IMG/VR virus record: IMGVR_UViG_3300040801_004034
Location: 124,001-188,000 of that record
DNA: 64,000 nucleotides
Strand: one strand, 5' to 3'
Source: a virus
In this document: positions 18,640 to 55,598 of the stretch, in pieces
Layout: every line of letters begins with the position of its first letter
Position numbering within the stretch: the first letter of the stretch is position 1
Position numbers and translations under genes: made by a program
The notes under the pieces: model-generated
Databases searched by the model: none
Told to the model about the DNA's origin: nothing
The model's input: the letters and a program-made list of their open reading frames with translations, nothing else

Positions 18640-19484
18640 TTTAATAGATGGCGGTTTGGCGTCACTAGATAAAGCATCGTAAGGTGTTGAAAGCATATAG
18701 GTCTTAATATATGCGCTATGCAAATAGTCATCCATTCATTCCAAAGTTCTCATTGGCGAAAGTTGATGAGCATCAGTCCATTCTGGTGTGAAAGAACATA
18801 TTGAGGGTTATAAGTGTACCTAGGCCAACGGTGAAGGTATACGGAAATTAGTAGTTTCCTGTGACCATACTAACTCAGTACTTCCTTAGAATAAATACTA
18901 ACTCAGTACTTCCTTAGAATAAACGGTAGATATCGTGTCAGAGTTTAGCAGACGATGGCTGATTATCATTACAAACGGGCGAGAGTTCGTGAAGTAGCCT
19001 CCAAACTTCCGCTAGAAGAGGAGATCGGAGCGTGTTGTATTTCGTAGTTCAAAAGACCGCGAAGCGACAGGACATGCACGCTCTATAAGACACAAAGAAT
19101 ATAGATCAATGGTAGATCAATTGTATATAGAACAATATGTTGAAGGTTCAAGTCCTCCTTTTCATTAACACGAAAAAGCAAAAGCCATGTCCTTACGTTG
19201 TAGAAAATAGTCTAATACTATACACGAAAGTGAATATAGTGCTTGTGAACTCGCAAGGGGATCAAGTTTAGCGATACAAGTAATCAAGTTTTGAGAGTAA
19301 GCTCCTCACTTCTGATGAAAATATGCTGAGTATATAACGTACCATAGTAGAAATGCTACTACTTTAAAAAAGCGACTATTGTAACATACTATTTAAAAAG
19401 TAGTGGATAAGTTTTTAACCGATATAGGGTACGGAAACGAAAGTGTTACTGAAAAAGGTATAATCTCAGCCTCGGGAATTTATT
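18640..19484 (+). rRNA. Large-subunit rRNA domain I-like RNA
   Basis: No coding frame across 840 nt. From about 18810 it follows 23S from its 5' end (E. coli, recalled): AAGTGTAC...ACGGTGAAGG (AAGCGTACACGGTGGATG), GTCAGAG...GACGATGGCTGAT (GTCAGAGGCGATGAAGGACGTGCTAAT), AGAAGAGGAGATC (AGGAAAAGAAATC), ACCGCGAAGCGACAGG (GCGGCGAGCGAACGGG), CTGAGTAT...ACCATAG...GCTA (CTGAATAT...ACCATCC...GCTA), ACCGATA and ACTGAAAAAGG (AGTGAAAAAGA). Bases 18660-18780 before the 5' end are unassigned. It lies between strong promoters and a terminator. Confidence 0.55.
18868..18925 (+). repeat. 29-bp tandem duplication inside the rRNA-like gene
   Basis: The sequence beginning ACTAACTCAGTACTTCC and ending GAATAAAT occurs twice in tandem, each copy able to form a small stem (CTAA...TTAG). 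Probably a recent expansion in a peripheral helix. Confidence 0.85.
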
Positions 19485-19515
19485 AAGCTCATCGTTTAGC
19501 GGCGGTGAGCTTTTC
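19485..19515 (+). terminator. Rho-independent terminator
   Basis: AAGCTCATCG pairs with CGGTGAGCTT, followed by TT and CC; ends the domain I-like RNA just before the next promoter. Confidence 0.8.
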
Positions 19516-41584: not shown

Positions 41585-42898
41585 ATGACAATTACAAAAT
41601 TTAGTCAGCTCGTAAAGCTCGTAAATGAAGAGTTTTACAAAGATGGTGATACATTAAAGTTTACAACAGATTCAAACGATGATAATGTATTGAAATTTAC
41701 TGATTCTTTAACAACAGTTAAAGGTGATAATTCAACATTTATAAGAAACAGGGGATTATCTCAAGGTAATTGGCATAGAGTGTATTATGGGTATGATGTT
41801 GTGGACGATACCGATATGAGAAAAAGTGTTATGAGAATACCGAAGACATTTACATCGGGTTCAGCTGATCCAAAATCATACGATTCAAACATAAATACAA
41901 CACATTATGATTATGATGCATTTACTGATAAGGAATATCAAATGTTAATAGATAGAGCAATTGATGGGTTCGTATCAAAACCATACACAGCTAAGACGCA
42001 TTATAATTTAATTGTGTATCCGAGTAGTAGATCACCTCATGTTATGGATATTGTACAGTCAATTCAAAATAAAATTGGTTATGAATTACCAGCTATAGAA
42101 CACAAAAAAATTCCTAATACAACAACAGGTTGGAAACAAATATTTGGATTAAATGACCCAGATAACAGTAAAAATATTGTCAATACGCTGTACAATAAAA
42201 TCTTCGGAGATGCTAATCATTCCAGTAATGTAGCAGCTACTGCAAAAACAGAAATAAATGATGCTGCAAATGCGGTAATGACAAACCATAAAAGCAATGA
42301 CGATAAATACATTTCAGTTGCAACTCATTTACGCGGTGCAGGTGAGCCGGTTTTAATACAACAAATAATCGATGCGTTAAACCAAAATGGGTTCTTCGAA
42401 AAATTTCCAGGTGCTAAACAACCTAAGCTAGGTGGTCATTTAGATCAATATGCAACTAATTCTGTATTCAGACAAGAAAGACTGAACAAAAAGCTTGGTG
42501 AGGATCAGCTTAATATTTTATTTGTGGATGATAATATTAATACAGGGGATACGTATAAGCAGTTACAAGCTGTAATTACAAAATCGCCTGATCAGCATTG
42601 GGATTTCTTTTACCTTATTAAAAAGGAAAGTTATGGAAATACAGAAGGTGATATTGGTACTGGGGAAATCGAACAGCTTGAATCACAAAAAGTTAGTATT
42701 TCAAAAACGATTTCCGATCTCAACCTTAGGCTCAAAAAATTGAACGATGTTGAAAATTTCTCTTCTATGGACCTTGGTTTGAGCGATATGAGACGAGAAA
42801 AGGAGCAAAAGGAAAAGACAAATCAGTTAGAATCACTTACAAACCAGCTTGCTGAACTTGAAAAGAAGATCAAGCAACTAAGCTGGCAGAGGGAATAG
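41585..42898 (+). CDS. Phosphoribosyltransferase-like late protein with coiled-coil tail
   Basis: 437 aa. The PRPP-loop-like motif LNILFVDDNINTGDTYK lies near residue 315; a coiled coil (residues about 350-435) ends the protein. Preceded by GAATAAATAATAAAAT, a late-type promoter, and opposite to its neighbours, so probably expressed late. Whether it is an enzyme or a virion protein with a PRTase fold is unclear. Confidence 0.75.
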   Translation: MTITKFSQLVKLVNEEFYKDGDTLKFTTDSNDDNVLKFTDSLTTVKGDNSTFIRNRGLSQGNWHRVYYGYDVVDDTDMRKSVMRIPKTFTSGSADPKSYDSNINTTHYDYDAFTDKEYQMLIDRAIDGFVSKPYTAKTHYNLIVYPSSRSPHVMDIVQSIQNKIGYELPAIEHKKIPNTTTGWKQIFGLNDPDNSKNIVNTLYNKIFGDANHSSNVAATAKTEINDAANAVMTNHKSNDDKYISVATHLRGAGEPVLIQQIIDALNQNGFFEKFPGAKQPKLGGHLDQYATNSVFRQERLNKKLGEDQLNILFVDDNINTGDTYKQLQAVITKSPDQHWDFFYLIKKESYGNTEGDIGTGEIEQLESQKVSISKTISDLNLRLKKLNDVENFSSMDLGLSDMRREKEQKEKTNQLESLTNQLAELEKKIKQLSWQRE

Positions 42899-42899
42899 T

Positions 42900-43049
42900 T
42901 TAATCCCAATTCCAGGTTTCATAATACAAATCATCAACCTCGAACTCATCCCAGAATTCTTTACCGCATGTAGGACAGGTACCATATAATGTCTTCCAAT
43001 GACCAGGTTTATTAGGATATCCGGTCATACCACTTGTTCTAACCTTCAT
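42900..43049 (-). CDS. Zinc-ribbon protein, possibly joined by amber readthrough
   Basis: From ATG 43049: MKVRTSGMTGYPNKPGHWKT, then CPTCGKEFWDEFEV, 49 aa with one CxxC. The frame is open upstream for 11 more codons (with Tyr-Cys-Gly-His, a likely first zinc half-site) back to the TAG that ends the gene at 43080, and is in frame with that gene. Reading through the TAG would give one 128-residue protein with a complete C-x-H...CxxC ribbon. Confidence 0.65.
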   Translation of the reverse strand: MKVRTSGMTGYPNKPGHWKTLYGTCPTCGKEFWDEFEVDDLYYETWNWD

Positions 43050-43079
43050 TTTAAGATCTTTATGTCCGCAATAATCGTT

Positions 43080-43286
43080 CTAGATCGTTTCAATTTCCTG
43101 TACGACTTGTTGCTGAACCTTCTTGATTAGATCTTGTTTATCATTTGTGGTATTAATTTGTAGTTGCAAGTAAAAATGATCTTGTTTACGGTGATCTACC
43201 GTAAACTTATCTTCCATCAAAGCATTCACATTTTTGACATGCACAAACCCTGTCTCTGAGATAGTTCTCCAATCAAATTTTCTCAT
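43080..43286 (-). CDS. Hypothetical protein, 68 aa, ends in TAG
   Basis: MRKFDWRTISETGFVHVKNV, ending VQQQVVQEIETI. Its ATG overlaps the thyA stop (GTATGAG). The TAG stop is followed in frame by the zinc-ribbon part (see 42900). Unknown. Confidence 0.68.
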   Translation of the reverse strand: MRKFDWRTISETGFVHVKNVNALMEDKFTVDHRKQDHFYLQLQINTTNDKQDLIKKVQQQVVQEIETI

Positions 43287-44161
43287 ACTGCAACCTCCGC
43301 CTTGATTGTACCCTGATGATTGTAATCGACGAGCTTCGAGTCTGAAAACTCCCAATCAAATACACTTGTAAAATTATCTGTCTGAAGCGTAGGCAACGCA
43401 AGCGGGCTACGTGACAGCTGTTCTCTTGCTTGTTCCACATGGTTCTCATACAGGTGTAAATCAGCTAGTGAACCACTTAGAACACCTGGTTTGAGACCTG
43501 CTTCTTTTGCTAGCAAATCTAGTAGCAAAGCATACGATGCAAGATTGAATGGTACCCCAAGGAATGTATCACAACTGCGCTGCGTCCAAACAAGGTCGAG
43601 ATATTCACCACGCTTCATAACTTGCCAAGAAAAATGACACCATGCAAGTGCTGTATGATCTAGACCGAGAGGATTCCAAGCAGTACAGACCATTCGACGA
43701 CATTCAGGATTGTTATGAAGTCGATAAACAATACTTTTTAATTGGTCAACACTTTGATGACCTTCATTACCGTAATGTCTTGCAGATGGATCATGAAAAT
43801 CTCTCCAACTAGCTCCATAAATACATGGACCGAGATCGTCTTCGGCTTTCATTTTAGCTTTAGTTTCATCATCGTTACCATATAGTACTTTATCTGGGTT
43901 ACACCATTCATCCCAAATCTTACATCCACGATCTTGAAACCATTTCTTAGATGTAACACCTTTAATGAACCCCTCGAGCTCAACCGCCATTGTTTTAAAT
44001 GCAAGACGTTTTGTTGTAAGTGCCGGAAATCCTAAACTCATATCATGTTGAATCATACGAGGTGGGATTTTATAAGTAGCTACACCGGTACGGTTTTGCT
44101 GAATGACATCTGTATCAAGAAGGTCTTGAAGAATTTGTAGGTATTGTGTTTCTGCGTTCAT
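43283..44161 (-). CDS. thyA: Thymidylate synthase
   Basis: 292 aa. Folate-dependent conversion of dUMP to dTMP. Catalytic Cys in ALAWCHFSWQV; QRSCDTFLGVPFNLASYALL and DLHLYENHVEQ are family signatures; RTGVATYKIP near the start binds phosphate. Start set at MNAETQYLQ, one base before the upstream stop. Boosts dTTP for phage DNA. Confidence 0.95.
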   Translation of the reverse strand: MNAETQYLQILQDLLDTDVIQQNRTGVATYKIPPRMIQHDMSLGFPALTTKRLAFKTMAVELEGFIKGVTSKKWFQDRGCKIWDEWCNPDKVLYGNDDETKAKMKAEDDLGPCIYGASWRDFHDPSARHYGNEGHQSVDQLKSIVYRLHNNPECRRMVCTAWNPLGLDHTALAWCHFSWQVMKRGEYLDLVWTQRSCDTFLGVPFNLASYALLLDLLAKEAGLKPGVLSGSLADLHLYENHVEQAREQLSRSPLALPTLQTDNFTSVFDWEFSDSKLVDYNHQGTIKAEVAV

Positions 44162-44162
44162 A

Positions 44163-44630
44163 TTAATCTTTAAAGTGTTCACGTACGGTATTTTCCATAA
44201 TCTGCTTTAGCTGACTATCGATATTGAACCGTTTGCTGTTGATATCCAAACTGGTGCGGATATTACCGTTTTTATTTCGTTGCGTAGCTGCTTTCCAGTC
44301 TGCAAGCATCTCGAGCAAATCGAGGAGTGTCATGTCATTAACACCATTCTCCCAGTGTTCAGGGTGGTGCCGGTTCTTTGCATAGTGGTTGTCAATAGCA
44401 GGTTGTACCTGCTTGAGAAGCTCATCATACTCAGGAGAACCATATTCTGTCTTAGCTAGTTCAGGAGTCTTTTCAGCAAAGATTGCTAGCTCCGGATCAA
44501 CAAACTTACTATCATCATGCTTTTGACCACGATCAATCAGATCATGTACAAACAAATTCAGATTCATTTGTACTTGACGGACATGTTTATGCGTCTCGTT
44601 CAGACAGTTTAATGTTTTATTATTGCTCAT
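44163..44630 (-). CDS. DUF5662-like protein
   Basis: 155 aa. RGQKHDDSKFVDPELAIF and NRHHPEHWENG, then MTLLDLLEMLADWKAA match the phage DUF5662 pattern, a His/Asp-rich helical protein of unknown role that looks like an HD-type metal site. Confidence 0.75.
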   Translation of the reverse strand: MSNNKTLNCLNETHKHVRQVQMNLNLFVHDLIDRGQKHDDSKFVDPELAIFAEKTPELAKTEYGSPEYDELLKQVQPAIDNHYAKNRHHPEHWENGVNDMTLLDLLEMLADWKAATQRNKNGNIRTSLDINSKRFNIDSQLKQIMENTVREHFKD

Positions 44631-48100: not shown

Positions 48101-48832
48101 TTATTGCTTTGTAGTGGGCATTAACCACATGTTATTGTTTGAGAAAACTTGCTCCTTGATCATGCTGTAGTATTCAAGCCGTGACAAGGTCAACATAGTA
48201 TCAGCCTTGAAACACTTGAACAATTCCTCACGGATACGCTCTTGTGAAACGTTCTTTAGACCACTTACGAACTCCATGTAGATCATGCAGCGATGAATAT
48301 CCTGATGTAGGTTGAATCCCTTGGTGATTGAAAACCTGAAGTAGCGTAACATACGAAGGTAATCTTCCTTGATTCGATCTTCAGCATTTCCAACTGCACG
48401 GATAAGCTTCATATTAAGGTCATCCACCCCATGAAAAGGATCGATAATAGTACCATCAGCAAGATCAATAGCAATTGCATTTACAGTTGCGTCACGACGA
48501 GCAAGGTCATCTTCGATACAATCAGCAATGTGGGTTACATCAGGCCGACGACCATCACTGTATTCACCATCCTTACGAGCAAGAGCAACATCAACTGCAC
48601 CGAGTCCAGGAATGTTGCATCGTAGAGTCAAAAACCCTTCAGTTGCAAGAAAGACCTCACCACCGATATCTTCAACAGCCTTCACCATGTCAGCAAAGGT
48701 AGGAGCTACCATACACAAATCCAAGTCCTTAGGCTTGCTATTTGCGTCGATCAACTTATCACGTACCCACCCACCAACGATGTACGTTGGGAAGGGTAGC
48801 TTAATGTTAGGAATGTCTAATACTGCTTGCAT
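48101..48832 (-). CDS. cca: CCA tRNA nucleotidyltransferase
   Basis: 243 aa. PTYIVGGWVRDKLIDANSK and KDLDLC form the catalytic head (GG...DxD); RRDATVNAIAIDL, IDPFHGVDDL and DYLRMLRYFRFS are neck motifs of class II CCA-adding enzymes and poly(A) polymerases. Shorter than cellular enzymes, lacking most of the tail. It would complete the tRNAs of the array that lack an encoded CCA, and the tmRNA. An AGGAAC-type promoter precedes it. Confidence 0.92.
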   Translation of the reverse strand: MQAVLDIPNIKLPFPTYIVGGWVRDKLIDANSKPKDLDLCMVAPTFADMVKAVEDIGGEVFLATEGFLTLRCNIPGLGAVDVALARKDGEYSDGRRPDVTHIADCIEDDLARRDATVNAIAIDLADGTIIDPFHGVDDLNMKLIRAVGNAEDRIKEDYLRMLRYFRFSITKGFNLHQDIHRCMIYMEFVSGLKNVSQERIREELFKCFKADTMLTLSRLEYYSMIKEQVFSNNNMWLMPTTKQ

Positions 48833-48853
48833 ATGGTAATTATATGATTGTTC

Positions 48854-49225
48854 CTATCCGAAATACGGTTCGCTTTTTTTACTGAAAGGGTGCATTGCAT
48901 CCCAATGTTTTTTATATGCTTCAGGATCTTTTTTCTTCATACGTTCTACTTCTTCAGCATATCGCTTCAACGGACGATTTGCAATCTCATTGAATTCATC
49001 CTGTGTAATGTTATTGAGATTGATTTCAATATTTCGTAACTCAGGGCATCCAGTCTGCTCACCGCCAAACCGACGCTGTTCAGCACCTTCAGGGCTGAGA
49101 TCGATCCCGTATTTGCAGTCACATGTTGAAGGTTCTTTTTCGAACATCATACCGTCATAACTACATTTCGTGCGGCGAAGCAGATGGATGTATTTTCTGA
49201 GTGTTTCTATGTCTGTTGTAAACAT
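48854..49225 (-). CDS. Hypothetical protein, 123 aa
   Basis: MFTTDIETLRKYIHLLRRTK, two Cys clusters (CSYDG, STCDCKYG) and a helical C-terminus. Start chosen at the ATG after TATAATATT. Unknown. Confidence 0.68.
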   Translation of the reverse strand: MFTTDIETLRKYIHLLRRTKCSYDGMMFEKEPSTCDCKYGIDLSPEGAEQRRFGGEQTGCPELRNIEINLNNITQDEFNEIANRPLKRYAEEVERMKKKDPEAYKKHWDAMHPFSKKSEPYFG

Positions 49226-49229
49226 AATA

Positions 49230-49913
49230 TTATAGCGGATTCTGAGTATCCTTACCGTGATGATCTGGAGCACTTCCATTTTGCTTATCCATGAACTTTC
49301 TCAGATCAGCAAAGTTGATCGGGTAATCATTCTCTTCAACGCTAACTTCGTAGCACTTCATCTTGGAATTCTTGTAAAGACGTCCGAGTTCAGACTTAAC
49401 GAGAGTTCCATGAACATGACTGTAAAGCATGTAAGACCCTCCGCCTTGACCATTCCAACTCAACACTGGGTAATGACTCAAGCACACAGCTTGACCATTG
49501 ACAAATGCTTCGAAGTAGTTTGGAGTAAACACAACTTGCTTACCCCCGAGATCGAGAACATTTTCATCAACACCGCTAAAGCTTTGATGCCAACCCGCAT
49601 AGTGATTACCAGCAGGTAGGTAAAGAGTCTTGAAGCTCAATCGGTTCAGCAATTCTTCGAATGCTTCCTTCCCACCTGCGCCGAACATAGTATCACCAAG
49701 TAGGAAACCAACAGTATTCTCATTAGCTACTTCGTTCCAACGTTGGATCAAAGTCTCTCTATGATCAAGAACGGAATCAAATCCGCGCATCTTCCATAGC
49801 GGTACCTTCCACTTTGGATCATGATTAGCATGCAAGCATCCCCAGAACAGAACTTCCTTAGGATCTGCCTTAACCTTAACTGGCTTGTAAAATAAATCTT
49901 TTAAATTCGACAT
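49230..49913 (-). CDS. Calcineurin-like metallophosphoesterase
   Basis: About 227 aa. FWGCLHANHD (D-x-H variant), LLGDTMFG, PAGNHYAGW, LSHYPVLSW and SHVHGT form the two-metal site. Phage members may act on nucleic-acid ends, proteins or cyclic nucleotides; substrate unknown. AGGAAC promoter (49920-49936) six bases before ATG. Confidence 0.82.
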   Translation of the reverse strand: MSNLKDLFYKPVKVKADPKEVLFWGCLHANHDPKWKVPLWKMRGFDSVLDHRETLIQRWNEVANENTVGFLLGDTMFGAGGKEAFEELLNRLSFKTLYLPAGNHYAGWHQSFSGVDENVLDLGGKQVVFTPNYFEAFVNGQAVCLSHYPVLSWNGQGGGSYMLYSHVHGTLVKSELGRLYKNSKMKCYEVSVEENDYPINFADLRKFMDKQNGSAPDHHGKDTQNPL

Positions 49914-49919
49914 ATGCGT

Positions 49920-49936
49920 ATTATAAATGTGTTCCT
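49920..49936 (-). promoter_or_regulatory. AGGAAC-type promoter (minus strand)
   Basis: Reverse complement AGGAACACATTTATAAT, identical to the one before the CTA tRNA. Confidence 0.78.
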
Positions 49937-50361
49937 GTTGCAAGTTGAACATAAAATGGTACAAGAGCAATAAGCGTTACTGCGTGAATAAGCTGATCGA
50001 TTCCAATTGTATTCCAAAATGCTTTATATTGATCACGTTGCCAGAATCGAGCTGTAAGTCTACTTGTACACCAATCTGTTGCAAAATGTGTTACAAAAAT
50101 ATAAAAATATATTAACATATGAAACGAAAATGATCCCCAAAATCCCATATTAGGCAGCTCTGTTACAAAGCAAAGCGGCATCAAGATAAAAAGAAAAATC
50201 ATCATGAATACAGTCCCTGTATAAATCGTAACGTGATCTAACATAACCCTGTTATCTGAGATTTTTTGTGTACCTATTTTTCTACTCTGAAGTAGAAAAT
50301 CTCCGATATAATGCCCACTAAGTAAGACAGCTATAAAATAAATTGTAATATATTCAATCAT
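49921..50361 (-). CDS. DUF3307 membrane protein
   Basis: 146 aa, four membrane helices. GHYIGDFLLQSRKIG and THFATDWCTSR, then GIDQLIHAVT fit the DUF3307 family, of unknown function. GGAG six bases before the ATG is a real Shine-Dalgarno. Confidence 0.78.
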   Translation of the reverse strand: MIEYITIYFIAVLLSGHYIGDFLLQSRKIGTQKISDNRVMLDHVTIYTGTVFMMIFLFILMPLCFVTELPNMGFWGSFSFHMLIYFYIFVTHFATDWCTSRLTARFWQRDQYKAFWNTIGIDQLIHAVTLIALVPFYVQLATGTHL

Positions 50362-50497
50362 AATCTTCTCCAATTCCAACTGTTCGATGTGCATATCTCT
50401 CACCGCAAGAATATTCAGCGAGCTCTGAACTGCATAGAGATAATGTTCCGTCCTTCACTCTCTGAAAAAACAGATCGATCTCTAATTCCTCAATCAT
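50354..50497 (-). CDS. Hypothetical protein, 47 aa
   Basis: MIEELEIDLFFQRVKDGTLS, then CGERYAHRTVG. Overlaps both neighbours by a few bases, a translational-coupling layout. Unknown. Confidence 0.6.
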   Translation of the reverse strand: MIEELEIDLFFQRVKDGTLSLCSSELAEYSCGERYAHRTVGIGEDYD

Positions 50498-51326
50498 GGT
50501 CTTCGAGATCGATGTAAATTTTGTCGTTGAACCATGACCAATCTTGTTTAAAGACTGGCGTCTCGTTATCAATGTACCATTTTGTTCTGACAGGTACCTC
50601 ACCGATTTTAATATCTGGATGCATATCAGGAAATGCTACTGTTTCAAATTTCTTATAACAAGACGAACCATGCTGTTTGGTAACTGGTAGTTCATACCAA
50701 TCAGCGTCATCATCTTCATTTGACATTAACATCTCTTTAAGCTTAGCTGTATTCTTACCTTGTAACTCTTTATGTGAGTAATAAGCTCGAGCTTGCATCT
50801 GAACACTGTTTTTTGCAGCATCTTGCATTCTCCACCACAAGCAGTTTAAAACTTCATAACGTTGTGATAGTGGAAACACACGAGCATCGAATTGAGCTTG
50901 TTTCATTACCATTGCATCAGCTACAGCAGTTTCATCTAACTGATTACCATAATCAGGTGTTATAGCACGAACCATTCGCAACTGATTAAACTTACTTGTT
51001 GCAAGACTTGCAGCAACACTTGTGATCTTTTGGATGTTTCCGCCAAACCAGATATCAGCTTCACGGCTCATCAGGTCAGTAAACACGATTGTGATATCAT
51101 CTGATTGTGTATAACCAAACTGCGCACCCTGGATATTCTCACAAAGAAACTTCATCGTCTCTTGCATATCTTCGATCATACCTTCATCGAATGGTCGATC
51201 CAACCCTTTTGTATAGGTATGAAATGCTTTACCATCGATGCGTAGCACGTAATATTGTTTTGGTGAAAGATATGTACGAGTGATATTCTCGTAACCTTTC
51301 ATGCGATCTCCTAATTCATCACTCAT
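50490..51326 (-). CDS. Thg1-like tRNA 3'-5' polymerase
   Basis: 278 aa. YYVLRIDGKAFHTYTKGLDR and GYTQSDDITIVF are the metal-binding and catalytic motifs of the tRNA-His guanylyltransferase family. These enzymes add G-1 to tRNA-His or repair tRNA 5' ends, building in the 3'-5' direction. Fits the phage tRNA-His at 15447, which lacks an encoded G-1. A promoter (AGGAACAACGATATTAT) is just upstream. Confidence 0.92.
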   Translation of the reverse strand: MSDELGDRMKGYENITRTYLSPKQYYVLRIDGKAFHTYTKGLDRPFDEGMIEDMQETMKFLCENIQGAQFGYTQSDDITIVFTDLMSREADIWFGGNIQKITSVAASLATSKFNQLRMVRAITPDYGNQLDETAVADAMVMKQAQFDARVFPLSQRYEVLNCLWWRMQDAAKNSVQMQARAYYSHKELQGKNTAKLKEMLMSNEDDDADWYELPVTKQHGSSCYKKFETVAFPDMHPDIKIGEVPVRTKWYIDNETPVFKQDWSWFNDKIYIDLEDHD

Positions 51327-51352
51327 GTTGTTATAATATCGTTGTTCCTATT

Positions 51353-51490
51353 TTACCAACAAAACCATCCGCCGCATTTATTACATTTAACACCACCACG
51401 TGGTTGTGCTTGGATATCATGATCACATTCTGTATCAGCATCCCAAAGTTCATCTAATTCTGAGACGTTTTCTTTTATTTCATCACCCAT
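51353..51490 (-). CDS. Zinc-ribbon mini-protein, 45 aa
   Basis: ECDHDIQAQPRGGVKCNKCG has the C-x-H...CxxC arrangement of a short zinc ribbon. ATG overlaps the kinase stop (TAATG). Confidence 0.7.
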   Translation of the reverse strand: MGDEIKENVSELDELWDADTECDHDIQAQPRGGVKCNKCGGWFCW

Positions 51491-51906
51491 TACAGCTTAA
51501 TGTTATTGAGGATCTTCTCCTTTTGCTTTGCAACTACCTCAGCAGGTACCCCATGTACGTTTTCACTCCCATGCAAGTTCTGAACAACATAGCTCACAAC
51601 TACATAACCATGCTTTTCAGCAAGTTCGATATACGGCTTACGTTCTTTACCTGTTGTATTGGTGTTGTCAACAATGATACATGCAGTTCTTTTCAACATA
51701 TTCAGCTCGACCTGATCTTTGCACCAAGCATGAGCTTGGCCGAGTTTACTCGGATCGAAATCATAACCATCACCCCAGAATAAATCAGCACTACATATTT
51801 CACAATCTGGGTGCAAAGTTTCGATGAACTTGCTAAAGGTAGACTTACCGCTGCCTGACGCTCCGACAGGCAGGATAAGTACTTTGTTTTGAATTAATGG
51901 ATTCAT
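51490..51906 (-). CDS. P-loop kinase, polynucleotide-kinase-like (AAA_33)
   Basis: 138 aa. Walker A GASGSGKST at residues 17-25, AWCKDQVELNMLKR and IIVDNTNTTGKERKPY as in the 5'-kinase domain of T4 Pnkp and N4BP2-like proteins. No phosphatase domain. Adjacent to Thg1 and near two RNA ligases, so RNA 5'-end phosphorylation during repair is a sensible guess. Confidence 0.8.
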   Translation of the reverse strand: MNPLIQNKVLILPVGASGSGKSTFSKFIETLHPDCEICSADLFWGDGYDFDPSKLGQAHAWCKDQVELNMLKRTACIIVDNTNTTGKERKPYIELAEKHGYVVVSYVVQNLHGSENVHGVPAEVVAKQKEKILNNIKL

Positions 51907-51929
51907 ATAGCTATTATGTTAATGTTCCT

Positions 51930-52130
51930 TTACTTGCTTACTCGCTCACGAATTTCTGCAAGAGAATGCTCGATCAAAAGCTCCATAAGGTCATCAGAAC
52001 TTTGAATCCTAGCTTCAATAACCTCTGTTGGCTCGTTATGGTAAATTGCTCCGGCAGCAACATGTACCTCACCACCACTGAATACATGGCGATTGAAATT
52101 AATATGCTTGTTTTTTTCTAGTTTAATCAT
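51930..52130 (-). CDS. Short protein like the PRPP-synthetase N-terminus
   Basis: 66 aa. FNRHVFSGGEVHVAAGAIY and IEARIQSSDDLMELLIEHSL resemble the first 70 residues of phage ribose-phosphate pyrophosphokinases, but the PRPP and ATP sites are absent. Either a remnant or a protein that kept only the N-terminal fold. Confidence 0.6.
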   Translation of the reverse strand: MIKLEKNKHINFNRHVFSGGEVHVAAGAIYHNEPTEVIEARIQSSDDLMELLIEHSLAEIRERVSK

Positions 52131-52141
52131 AATTGTTTTGT

Positions 52142-52348
52142 CTATTTAAATTGTGTATCCATGTTGATATTAAACGAACGGAAAACATAGTATAGTGATC
52201 CGATGTAAAATATCACCCAAGTACTCCATGTTGCAAAAACGAAACTATTCCAAGGTAGTTCATATATCACACCTGTAGACCACAGGGTAGCAAAAAACAT
52301 CAATATGGAAATGAATTTATGTTTATGTTTTAAAAATCGTCGTATCAT
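52142..52348 (-). CDS. Small membrane protein, 68 aa
   Basis: Two hydrophobic segments (FISILMFFATLWSTGVIY; FVFATWSTWVIFYIGSLYY). AGGAAC promoter just upstream (52357-52374). Unknown. Confidence 0.68.
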   Translation of the reverse strand: MIRRFLKHKHKFISILMFFATLWSTGVIYELPWNSFVFATWSTWVIFYIGSLYYVFRSFNINMDTQFK

Positions 52349-52352
52349 ATGT

Positions 52353-53135
52353 TTATATTACTGTTGTTCCTTTTTTACATCTACCTTTGAACCACCCGTT
52401 TGGTATTTCAGTTTTGGTTAAATCAACTTGTTTCATTGTTACACCATTGGTAATCCAATTTGTTCCTTTCTTCGCTTCACTCATTCTTTTTCTTGTACTA
52501 GTCTTTTTTGCAATACCTTTCTGTTTTATGCTTATTTTACGTTTAACATCATCAGGACGCTGTTTACCATAATGACCATTATTCGCGCCTTTATTTTTAC
52601 CTTTCATGCTTTGTGAGATTTTTCTACAATGATCTTTAGAAAATTTCTTGCCTTTGTTAGTACCGGTTCGACCAATATTTGTTTCACTTATTCTTTTTTT
52701 ATGTCTTTCAGTCATTCCTCTCACCCAACCTTCAGGTATATTTTTCAGTTTACACCATTTTTCATTATTACCATCGTTTATTAATACTAAACCATCACGT
52801 GCATGTTTCATACTTTCTCGCCATCGAACCCTGTAATACTCAAACATTCTTGATGATGTAATACGACCTACACCGTTAATACCAGTTTTAAAAAAAGATA
52901 AAGCGGATAGAGCTCTTAACATTTTATAATACTCAACAGAGCCTTTTATTTGCATTTTTACTAGTAGTAAATGCGCAATAAAATGTTCTCTCGGAGATAA
53001 TAAAACTATATTACTATGTTTATTATCTCCACCAATACTTTTTGGTATAATATGATGTCTTTCAGCATGGCATGATGTTGATGGATCTGATTTGCGTTTT
53101 TTGACAAGTGATTTGTAAACAGTATGATAATTCAT
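52353..53135 (-). CDS. HNH homing endonuclease
   Basis: 260 aa. AERHHIIPKSIGGDNKHSNI and LSPREHFIAHLLLVKM form the HNH core; NUMOD3-like repeats (HKKRISETNIGRTG, CRKISQSMKGKNKG) follow. A relative of the gene at 10861, inserted here among RNA-metabolism genes, between a membrane-protein gene and an RNA ligase. Confidence 0.87.
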   Translation of the reverse strand: MNYHTVYKSLVKKRKSDPSTSCHAERHHIIPKSIGGDNKHSNIVLLSPREHFIAHLLLVKMQIKGSVEYYKMLRALSALSFFKTGINGVGRITSSRMFEYYRVRWRESMKHARDGLVLINDGNNEKWCKLKNIPEGWVRGMTERHKKRISETNIGRTGTNKGKKFSKDHCRKISQSMKGKNKGANNGHYGKQRPDDVKRKISIKQKGIAKKTSTRKRMSEAKKGTNWITNGVTMKQVDLTKTEIPNGWFKGRCKKGTTVI

Positions 53136-53149
53136 ACTATTATTTATAT

Positions 53150-54160
53150 TCAGCTTTCGGTATACTGGTAATTGATCGTTTTGAAGCTTAGATCTTTGTT
53201 AAGTCGTTCACTATAAAGATGATTGCGAAGTCTCCATACAAGCCCTTCAGCAGTTGCACCATTAGCATACTTCACTTTCTTCGCTTCTTCGACAAGATCA
53301 TCAGCTGTTTCCCATTTGAATGGACCTTCATAGTAAAGATCAACCATAGGAATACCAAGCGTAGTGCAGATTTGAACTGATTCATTCCAGTCGCAAAGAA
53401 TACGACGATCAAGCTTCCAAACATTGAACACCCGGGCGTCAACACCTTTAAGCTTTTCTGGATTCTTTTGAATACCTTCACCTACAAGCTCCAACTGGAG
53501 ACCAATACCCACAGGTAGCTTCTCTTTAAGGTTGTACTTGAATACAGGTTGCCAATATTTGCTGTTTCCTGATTCTTTGATTTCGAGATTACGAGAGCAA
53601 ACTTTGAAACCGTCTTCGGCATGATTAACGATAGTTACAGAACTACCATCATGCTTAACAGTTGCAACAACATCTCGCCCTTTCATCATTTCGATAATAT
53701 CAGGCATATTCTCAAGACGTTCTTCATCGGTCTTTGGTACAAGATGTGTCGGAAACGACCCAGCTACGTCACCACTTTCATACGATACAGGTTTTTCGTA
53801 TTTCTCAACACCGAGATATTCACCCACATCAGTATCAATCAAATCATTCGGGTCGACATCATAATAGCTTGCTGGGAGATATTTCATAAGCTCACCAAGA
53901 GGCATAATTAGTCCATTGCTGTATTCACCACGAAGCTTGATAATATTAATCCTGAACTTCTTATTTTCTAGGAAGCTGAATTCTGGTTTATCTTTCGGCG
54001 CAATAGTATCGACCGGGATATAAACGACGAGATCATCCACTTTGAAATCAACTGCGCTAATTACACGCCAGCTGAGACCATACATCTTAAAGATGGTGAG
54101 TGAATCTGCATTTGGATGCTCAATAACATCCGAGATTTTTTGTATTGTTGCTAGTTTCAT
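53150..54160 (-). CDS. RNA ligase, DRB0094 type (Rnl5)
   Basis: 336 aa. N-terminal OB-like domain (residues 1-110: HPNADSLTIFKMYGLSWRVI) and a nucleotidyltransferase domain with lysine motif VKHDGSS at Lys 169, LELVGEGIQKNP (motif IIIa-like), EGLVWR and LSFKTIN (motif V). Family members join 5'-phosphate to 3'-OH RNA ends in duplex-like contexts. Second RNA ligase beside the one at 54501. Confidence 0.9.
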   Translation of the reverse strand: MKLATIQKISDVIEHPNADSLTIFKMYGLSWRVISAVDFKVDDLVVYIPVDTIAPKDKPEFSFLENKKFRINIIKLRGEYSNGLIMPLGELMKYLPASYYDVDPNDLIDTDVGEYLGVEKYEKPVSYESGDVAGSFPTHLVPKTDEERLENMPDIIEMMKGRDVVATVKHDGSSVTIVNHAEDGFKVCSRNLEIKESGNSKYWQPVFKYNLKEKLPVGIGLQLELVGEGIQKNPEKLKGVDARVFNVWKLDRRILCDWNESVQICTTLGIPMVDLYYEGPFKWETADDLVEEAKKVKYANGATAEGLVWRLRNHLYSERLNKDLSFKTINYQYTES

Positions 54161-54169
54161 ATTATATTT

Positions 54170-54511
54170 TTATTTTTGTTTCTTGTAGTTAACAAAGTCT
54201 CTACGTAAAACATTTCCAGTTTTTTGAAAATTTCTGATGAACATTAAGTTGTAGTTTTTTAGACTCTTCTGTTTATCGTAATACCCGAATACCTTTGCAT
54301 TAAATTTTACAACATCACCTGAACGGAATTTAAAGCCAGCAGGTGCAGTGATCCAAACATGATCTGCAACATCAATATCTTTATGTATCACGTCTTTAAT
54401 CAAAAGATAATGACCACCGATCTTGCGTGGATTAATTGTTTGTATAGTTGCAGTTACTTCGATCAATTGACCTTTGAACTGCTCCATTGCTTCTCTGAAT
54501 TTACTTTTCAT
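54170..54511 (-). CDS. OB-fold-like protein, 113 aa
   Basis: LIEVTATIQTINPRKIGGHY, DHVWITAPAGFKFRSGD, VVKFNAKVFGY: beta-barrel pattern with basic C-terminus. Lies between and overlaps an RNA ligase gene, so may bind RNA. Unassigned. Confidence 0.7.
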   Translation of the reverse strand: MKSKFREAMEQFKGQLIEVTATIQTINPRKIGGHYLLIKDVIHKDIDVADHVWITAPAGFKFRSGDVVKFNAKVFGYYDKQKSLKNYNLMFIRNFQKTGNVLRRDFVNYKKQK

Positions 54512-55598
54512 CCAATACTGATTTGATTATTTTTTTGATTGTTTGGTTTGGTATTTCCATTCCTTTACGTTTCTTAAATGCAACATCTTTCCATGGATTT
54601 CTGTACGTCATTTGCATTAAGAACGCAAAATCCTTATCCGAAAGATTTTTGTGCATTTGTGCATATTCATCGATTTTGTTGATTGAAACATCAACAGATT
54701 TTTTAACTTCATCTAGATTTTGAACAAGTTCCTCAACCATGCACCAGCATTCATAATCAAATGTGTTTTTGATATATTTTTTAAATGCTTTGAATGATGG
54801 AAAATCCTGATCAGCATAAAGATTAAGAATATTCTTTTCAGTTGCATTTGATTTAAACGAATGTAACTTGAGATACTCTGCTGATTTTACTTTCCATAAA
54901 TCATTACCTTGGTATATGACACAACCTTCAATACCAGATGCTTTTTCGATCGTAGATAGAAGTTCGCTCAGGTCATTGAACTCATATTTCTTCGGACGTG
55001 GCACAAGCATCTCCATTGCAAATGAATCAAGCATTACCTGAGATTCTAGCTCGTATGTATTCTTGTTAATTGCTCCGATCAGATACAAATCGATTTCGGG
55101 GTAGTCCAAAACAATCCGCTGATTAGGTGTTACAATTTCGAAAAGTAATGATAAATGAGTATGGTTCTGCATCCAAGGACGGATGTTATAGTACTTGTCA
55201 AGAGCAACATCGAAATCAGCGCTATTGTCTAAAGTAACGTAGCTTTCAGTACCTCTGGTACGAACGTTGAACATGTTCTCACATGCATCGACAATCATTA
55301 ACGAGCCATCCTCTTTAGATACAATTCTCGAATCTAACAGATCAGTTGGAGGCGGAAAGTTACCAGGGTTTTCACCAAAATTAACGAACTTAGGAAAGCC
55401 GCAGCTTAAGGGCTGAAAATCTGACTTACGGTAAATAAGTGAGCGTAAAAATTTATTTTCCTGCGTCCATTCGACACTAGGCAGACCTGGAGTAATTAAA
55501 CATGCCTCATCGCCAAAGAATGTAATATCTCTTTGTATAAATTCCTCGATTGGTACACTTTTGAGTGCAGCCTCTACGCGTTTTTGTGCTAAGTTCAT
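54501..55598 (-). CDS. RNA ligase 1, T4 Rnl1 type
   Basis: 365 aa (T4: 374). Adenylation motif SKEDGSL with Lys 95, LLFEIVTPNQRIVLDY (motif III), IEGCVIY (IV), LWKVKSAEYLKLH (V). In T4 this enzyme re-joins tRNA cut in the anticodon loop by host PrrC. With a kinase-like protein and an insertion-bearing tRNA-Lys in the same genome, tRNA repair or splicing is a natural role. Confidence 0.92.
   Translation of the reverse strand: MNLAQKRVEAALKSVPIEEFIQRDITFFGDEACLITPGLPSVEWTQENKFLRSLIYRKSDFQPLSCGFPKFVNFGENPGNFPPPTDLLDSRIVSKEDGSLMIVDACENMFNVRTRGTESYVTLDNSADFDVALDKYYNIRPWMQNHTHLSLLFEIVTPNQRIVLDYPEIDLYLIGAINKNTYELESQVMLDSFAMEMLVPRPKKYEFNDLSELLSTIEKASGIEGCVIYQGNDLWKVKSAEYLKLHSFKSNATEKNILNLYADQDFPSFKAFKKYIKNTFDYECWCMVEELVQNLDEVKKSVDVSINKIDEYAQMHKNLSDKDFAFLMQMTYRNPWKDVAFKKRKGMEIPNQTIKKIIKSVLDEK

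Follow-up and report, generated by a model that had tools for sequence, protein, structure and literature searches.

On the minus strand of the window, the 64,000-base stretch that was analysed here (bases 124001-188000 of a 221,292-base virus record), a small gene begins with an ATG that shares bases with the stop codon of the thymidylate synthase gene (43283-44182). It has a strong Shine-Dalgarno-like pairing at its start and runs for 68 codons to a TAG, as a first-pass annotation of this DNA had described without naming a strand. The same frame then continues to a TAA, over 59 sense codons rather than the 60 first counted. A Cys-Gly-His lies between the TAG and the next ATG and a CPTC lies beyond that ATG, both as previously noted (Table 1). 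There is no start codon 5' of the Cys-Gly-His in the frame after the TAG, and the first in-frame start is the ATG at 43049. A single frameshift at the TAG provides no way onward, with stops met within about a dozen codons.

Table 1. Positions in the window of the parts of the interrupted gene and of other features discussed in the text.
Feature	Position	Strand	Remark
N-terminal part, 68 codons (MRKFDW...QEIETI)	43083..43286	minus	from ATG 43286
In-frame TAG	43080..43082	minus	next base A
Ten codons NDYCGHKDLK, TAG to next start	43050..43079	minus	Cys-Gly-His at 43070-43062
C-terminal remainder, 49 codons (MKVRTSGM...GTCPTCGKEF...NWD)	42903..43049	minus	from internal ATG 43049; CPTC at 42977-42966
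TAA closing the extended frame	42900..42902	minus	1 nt from end of convergent gene 41585-42898
tRNA, anticodon CUA, encoded CCA; candidate amber suppressor	14150..14226	plus	called by ARAGORN
Promoter-like motif GGAAC-N5-TATAAT just 5' of tRNA(CUA)	14122..14137	plus	
Promoter-like motif, example	14122-14145	plus	
Promoter-like motif, example	48854-48828	minus	
69-aa ORF	14143-14352	plus	traverses the CUA tRNA gene
GOLLD RNA	19025-19472	plus	
tRNA-like sequence, anticodon AUA	19094-19167		called inside GOLLD RNA
141-aa ORF and CCA-adding enzyme	48101-49279	minus	TAG at 48856
RNA-repair-type cluster	48101-55598	minus	

The source phage is a large T4-like myovirus with the standard code. Its record contains genes for the major head protein, portal, tail-sheath stabiliser, DNA ligase and RNA ligase, together with about 40 tRNA genes, a tmRNA and a GOLLD RNA, inside which a tRNA-like sequence was called. 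A promoter-like motif, GGAAC-N5/6-TATAAT, occurs 46 times in the whole record, mostly just 5' of a start. The start codon (or tRNA) sits 5-6 bases past the TATAAT, a distance so short that nearly leaderless transcripts would be expected. The Shine-Dalgarno signal at gene starts is not above random, so this phage hardly uses one, and we therefore dropped the missing Shine-Dalgarno sequence at the internal ATG as evidence.

The frame after the TAG is clearly coding. On a score in bits derived from codon usage trained on the window's longer genes, the 59 codons reach +17.1, of which the part from the internal ATG onward gives +13.8; per 59 codons, genes average +11.8, and wrong frames stay below +6.5 in 99% of pieces. 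The 68-codon N-terminal part scores +9.8. The ten codons between the TAG and the ATG score +2.5, a value reached by 46% of genic but only 7% of intergenic open stretches. Leaving out the extended frame opens a gap of 181 nt to the convergent gene. Among the record's 23 convergent pairs, 19 either overlap or are separated by at most 13 nt. The coding score, the ten-codon score and the fit to the convergent gene all exceed chance.

The Cys-Gly-His (codons 4-6 after the TAG) and the CPTC, which could form two zinc half-sites, are 28 residues apart. Given that no start precedes the Cys, a protein with both half-sites requires reading of the TAG, and only then do the two share one chain. The fragment started at the internal ATG has no Cys outside the CPTC, and hence no partner half-site for it. 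A C-x(1-3)-[CH] half-site arises by chance in 1.7% of genic and 4.5% of intergenic open ten-codon stretches, so that a chance Cys-Gly-His is a possible but poorer explanation. The parallel drawn earlier with a mini-ribbon at 51353 holds in part. A 45-aa mini-ribbon with CDH-x11-CNKC does exist, its gene ending at 51353, but its spacing is 11 rather than 28, and it is a loose analogue only.

In structure models, a zinc ribbon follows directly on the TAG; being weak, the models have a supporting role only. Zinc-ribbon families matched only below threshold (Lar family, E 0.079; MqsA-type, E 0.13; TRASH, E 0.13). An unrelaxed AlphaFold2 model of codons 50-128, made without relatives (mean pLDDT 65), predicts a helix that spans the TAG position and then three ribbon-like strands, with the CPTC between the last two. 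The full-length model (pLDDT 43) was too poor for a structure search. The best Foldseek matches of the post-TAG model were NrdR zinc ribbons, and these were weak (E 0.42, probability 0.77). With VIA-align 2, the zinc ribbons of NrdR, RNA polymerase I (chain I) and ZPR1 were found at Z 2.5-3.1, in alignments that begin near the TAG position; the comparison with NrdR gave a Z of about 3 and an rmsd of 2.4-2.8 over 43-45 residues, and unrelated proteins rank equally high. The top VIA-align rows (YpeB, topoisomerase I and others) are such unrelated proteins, with Z under 4, and were set aside. The post-TAG domain would share with the N-terminal zinc ribbon of NrdR a weak resemblance in fold and a similar layout of two half-sites. 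It differs in having no sequence match, a Cys-x-His as its first half-site, no ATP-cone and a model of low confidence.

No homologue of the whole frame or of either half, fused or split, was found in phage records, IMG/VR or prokaryote genomes, where the scans of IMG/VR and of genomes rely on exact matches to short peptides and would miss distant relatives. Searches of PHROGs, Pfam, NCBIfam and PDB sequences with the whole frame and its halves returned nothing real, and the gene was absent from the neighbourhoods of the DUF5662, ligase and thymidylate synthase relatives in related phage records. Three matches were judged to be chance: one in L018 has different residues and stops in the frame, one in Xanthomonas phage PhiXhv-16 falls in the middle of a 434-aa protein without a ribbon, and one in Synechococcus phage S-WAM1 also lacks a ribbon.

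The CTA tRNA that had been invoked for readthrough is convincing. The tRNA(CUA) gene has a well-formed fold and, like many starts, a promoter-like motif just 5' of it; the ARAGORN label tRNA-Pyl reflects its anticodon only. Sinorhizobium phage phiM12 has an ochre-reading tRNA that is a close relative among phage records (84.7% over 59 nt), and the two CUA tRNAs of Xanthomonas phage XacN1 share the body of the tRNA described here. All four have in common the arm GCC(T/C)T(C/T)TAAAAC, and a C31 x A39 mismatch in the anticodon stem is apparently kept in each while other stem positions vary. Judging from these resemblances, the tRNA belongs to a group of nonsense-reading tRNAs found in other phages, possibly a dedicated lineage. 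A pattern scan of IMG/VR for its anticodon arm returned nothing. The other tRNAs of the array do not allow its amino acid identity to be inferred (best match tRNA-Gly, 66%). A 69-aa ORF starts at the ATG right past the promoter-like motif and traverses the tRNA gene.

Across the record, TAG behaves as an ordinary stop. The stops of 295 coding-like ORFs are TAA in 194, TGA in 52 and TAG in 49 cases (TAG about 17%). Coding resumes in the same frame past a stop in 41 cases in the 221-kb record (TAA 30, TGA 6, TAG 5), so same-frame adjacency alone is not unusual. The lengths and coding scores of the extensions are alike for all three stops, and there is no excess of in-frame coding continuation after TAG relative to TAA or TGA across the record. 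The gene studied here is the only clearly interrupted domain found in the record, and its stop is TAG; no gene comparably interrupted by TAA or TGA was found. At record position 19489 a TAA divides another frame, but this has the appearance of an antisense shadow of a repetitive gene and was discarded. Another amber codon once proposed for readthrough, at 48856, is better explained by an ordinary pair, a 141-aa ORF and a CCA-adding enzyme, which we regard as two genes because GGAAC-N5-TATAAT stands a few bases 5' of the ATG of the enzyme.

Several readings of the locus compete, and the likelihoods that we attach to them are our own judgement and were not computed. The sequence speaks for a single zinc-ribbon gene whose domain border carries an amber codon, and as the best single reading we tentatively favour a suppressible amber codon. 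We counted in its favour the coding signal flanking the TAG on either side, the exact fit to the convergent gene and the kinship of the tRNA with suppressor tRNAs; against it stand the lack of a homologue with a fusion or a kept TAG, the lack of TAG excess, and the weak structure matches. The original readthrough proposal survives in its local elements (a coding frame, no start before the Cys-x-His, a tRNA(CUA) in the genome), but not as part of any genome-wide pattern. At the other extreme, it is highly improbable that the whole phage, or its later genes, read TAG as an amino acid (code 15 or similar), with this gene being one of many. The tRNA(CUA) would fit such recoding, and about half of the phages predicted to use code 15 carry one (PMC11210395). 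However, the pattern of code 15, in which many conserved genes have in-frame TAG and TAG is avoided as a terminator, was not found: under table 11 the genes for the major head protein, portal, ligase and thymidylate synthase are all intact, and no release factor gene was found in the record. Given the stop counts, the equal extensions and the lack of an excess of interrupted genes, there is no genome-wide recoding; the counts contradict it, and only an incipient stage would be possible.

The main rival holds that a normal 128-codon zinc-ribbon gene was hit by a recent nonsense mutation, such that the C-terminal part has ceased to be produced, or is restored only incidentally through the tRNA(CUA). 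We consider this a somewhat less probable but serious alternative; as no relatives were found for comparison, a recent inactivating mutation is almost as likely as a leaky amber codon. Codon usage is good in both halves and no other lesion is present, as a very young change would predict; the TAG is kept in no relative, and the phage might do without a small accessory gene. That the stop is TAG calls for no particular explanation, as about 28% of random nonsense changes in the genome give TAG. On the other hand, the phage has a tRNA that reads exactly this stop, the TAG sits just at the domain border, and nothing comparable with TAA or TGA was found in the record. A variant of this rival, a minority allele or a consensus error in the metagenome assembly, is less likely. 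Against an assembly error stands a second contig that is 99.985% identical over 13.4 kb in another part of the window but stops short of the TAG. It is unlikely, in our view, that the locus holds two genes, the 68-residue protein and a 49-residue protein from the ATG at 43049, made perhaps by reinitiation, with the Cys-Gly-His being fortuitous. Same-frame neighbours with short gaps are common in the record, the plain context of the internal ATG is no objection in a phage of this kind, and 2-5% of ten-codon stretches contain a Cys/His pair by chance. Yet two genes would leave the coding-like character of the ten-codon gap to be explained and the CPTC without a second half-site, and the promoter-like motif found at many starts is missing from the internal ATG, whose gap is the longest of the five TAG pairs.

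If the amber codon is suppressible, the region 43286-42900 would be one gene in the thymidylate synthase operon with a product of about 128 residues, in which a 68-residue N-terminal part is followed by a small C-terminal zinc ribbon, with the TAG at the border. In this scenario, most ribosomes in infected cells would stop at the TAG and yield the 68-residue form, and the remainder would insert an amino acid via the phage tRNA(CUA) and yield the form with the ribbon, whose ligands would be Cys73-x-His75 ... Cys104-x-x-Cys107. This presumes that the tRNA(CUA) is charged and reads this TAG, that zinc is bound and that the long form is functional. With 49 of 295 genes ending in TAG, strong suppression would lengthen many proteins, the median extension being 8 codons. 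A further idea, which we hold to be doubtful, is that the phage employs its tRNA(CUA) to switch the product of a single gene in the thymidylate synthase operon. Ribosomes that terminate at the TAG would give the short protein, and suppression as the tRNA accumulates would add the ribbon. If true, the suppressor tRNAs of standard-code phages for which no use is known would have a natural target here.

From the perspective of known systems, one close likeness is to XacN1, also a large myovirus with a big tRNA set, the standard code and sequence-related tRNA(CUA) genes (PMC5852040). Its authors simulated readthrough for 18 amber-ending genes in silico without identifying a target (PMC5852040), whereas the present phage offers one candidate target and does not use TAG rarely. 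In crAss-like phages a phage-borne suppressor tRNA likewise occurs with an amber codon inside a gene, but many conserved late genes have in-frame TAG, with recoding of TAG or TGA (PMC7886860, PMC9523058). In the present phage, one small gene beside thymidylate synthase is affected, and TAG still ends many genes. Suppressors without reassignment were suggested to be a possible early stage of code change (PMC7886860), and this phage resembles such a stage, with the suppressor preceding reassignment. Work on in-frame stops in prokaryotic genes (PMC7918605) describes a similar situation, a single stop inside an otherwise intact gene; there, relatives and selection estimates were available, while no relatives of the gene described here were found. 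Several standard-code phages carry nonsense-suppressor tRNAs without known targets. A single gene of such a phage whose domain becomes complete only across a TAG would provide a concrete, testable target for the suppressor tRNA, or alternatively may represent an early step toward recoding as in crAss-like phages (PMC7886860).

The genome with its roughly 40 tRNA genes also has an RNA-repair-type cluster, which includes the CCA-adding enzyme, a tRNA-His guanylyltransferase and two RNA ligases.
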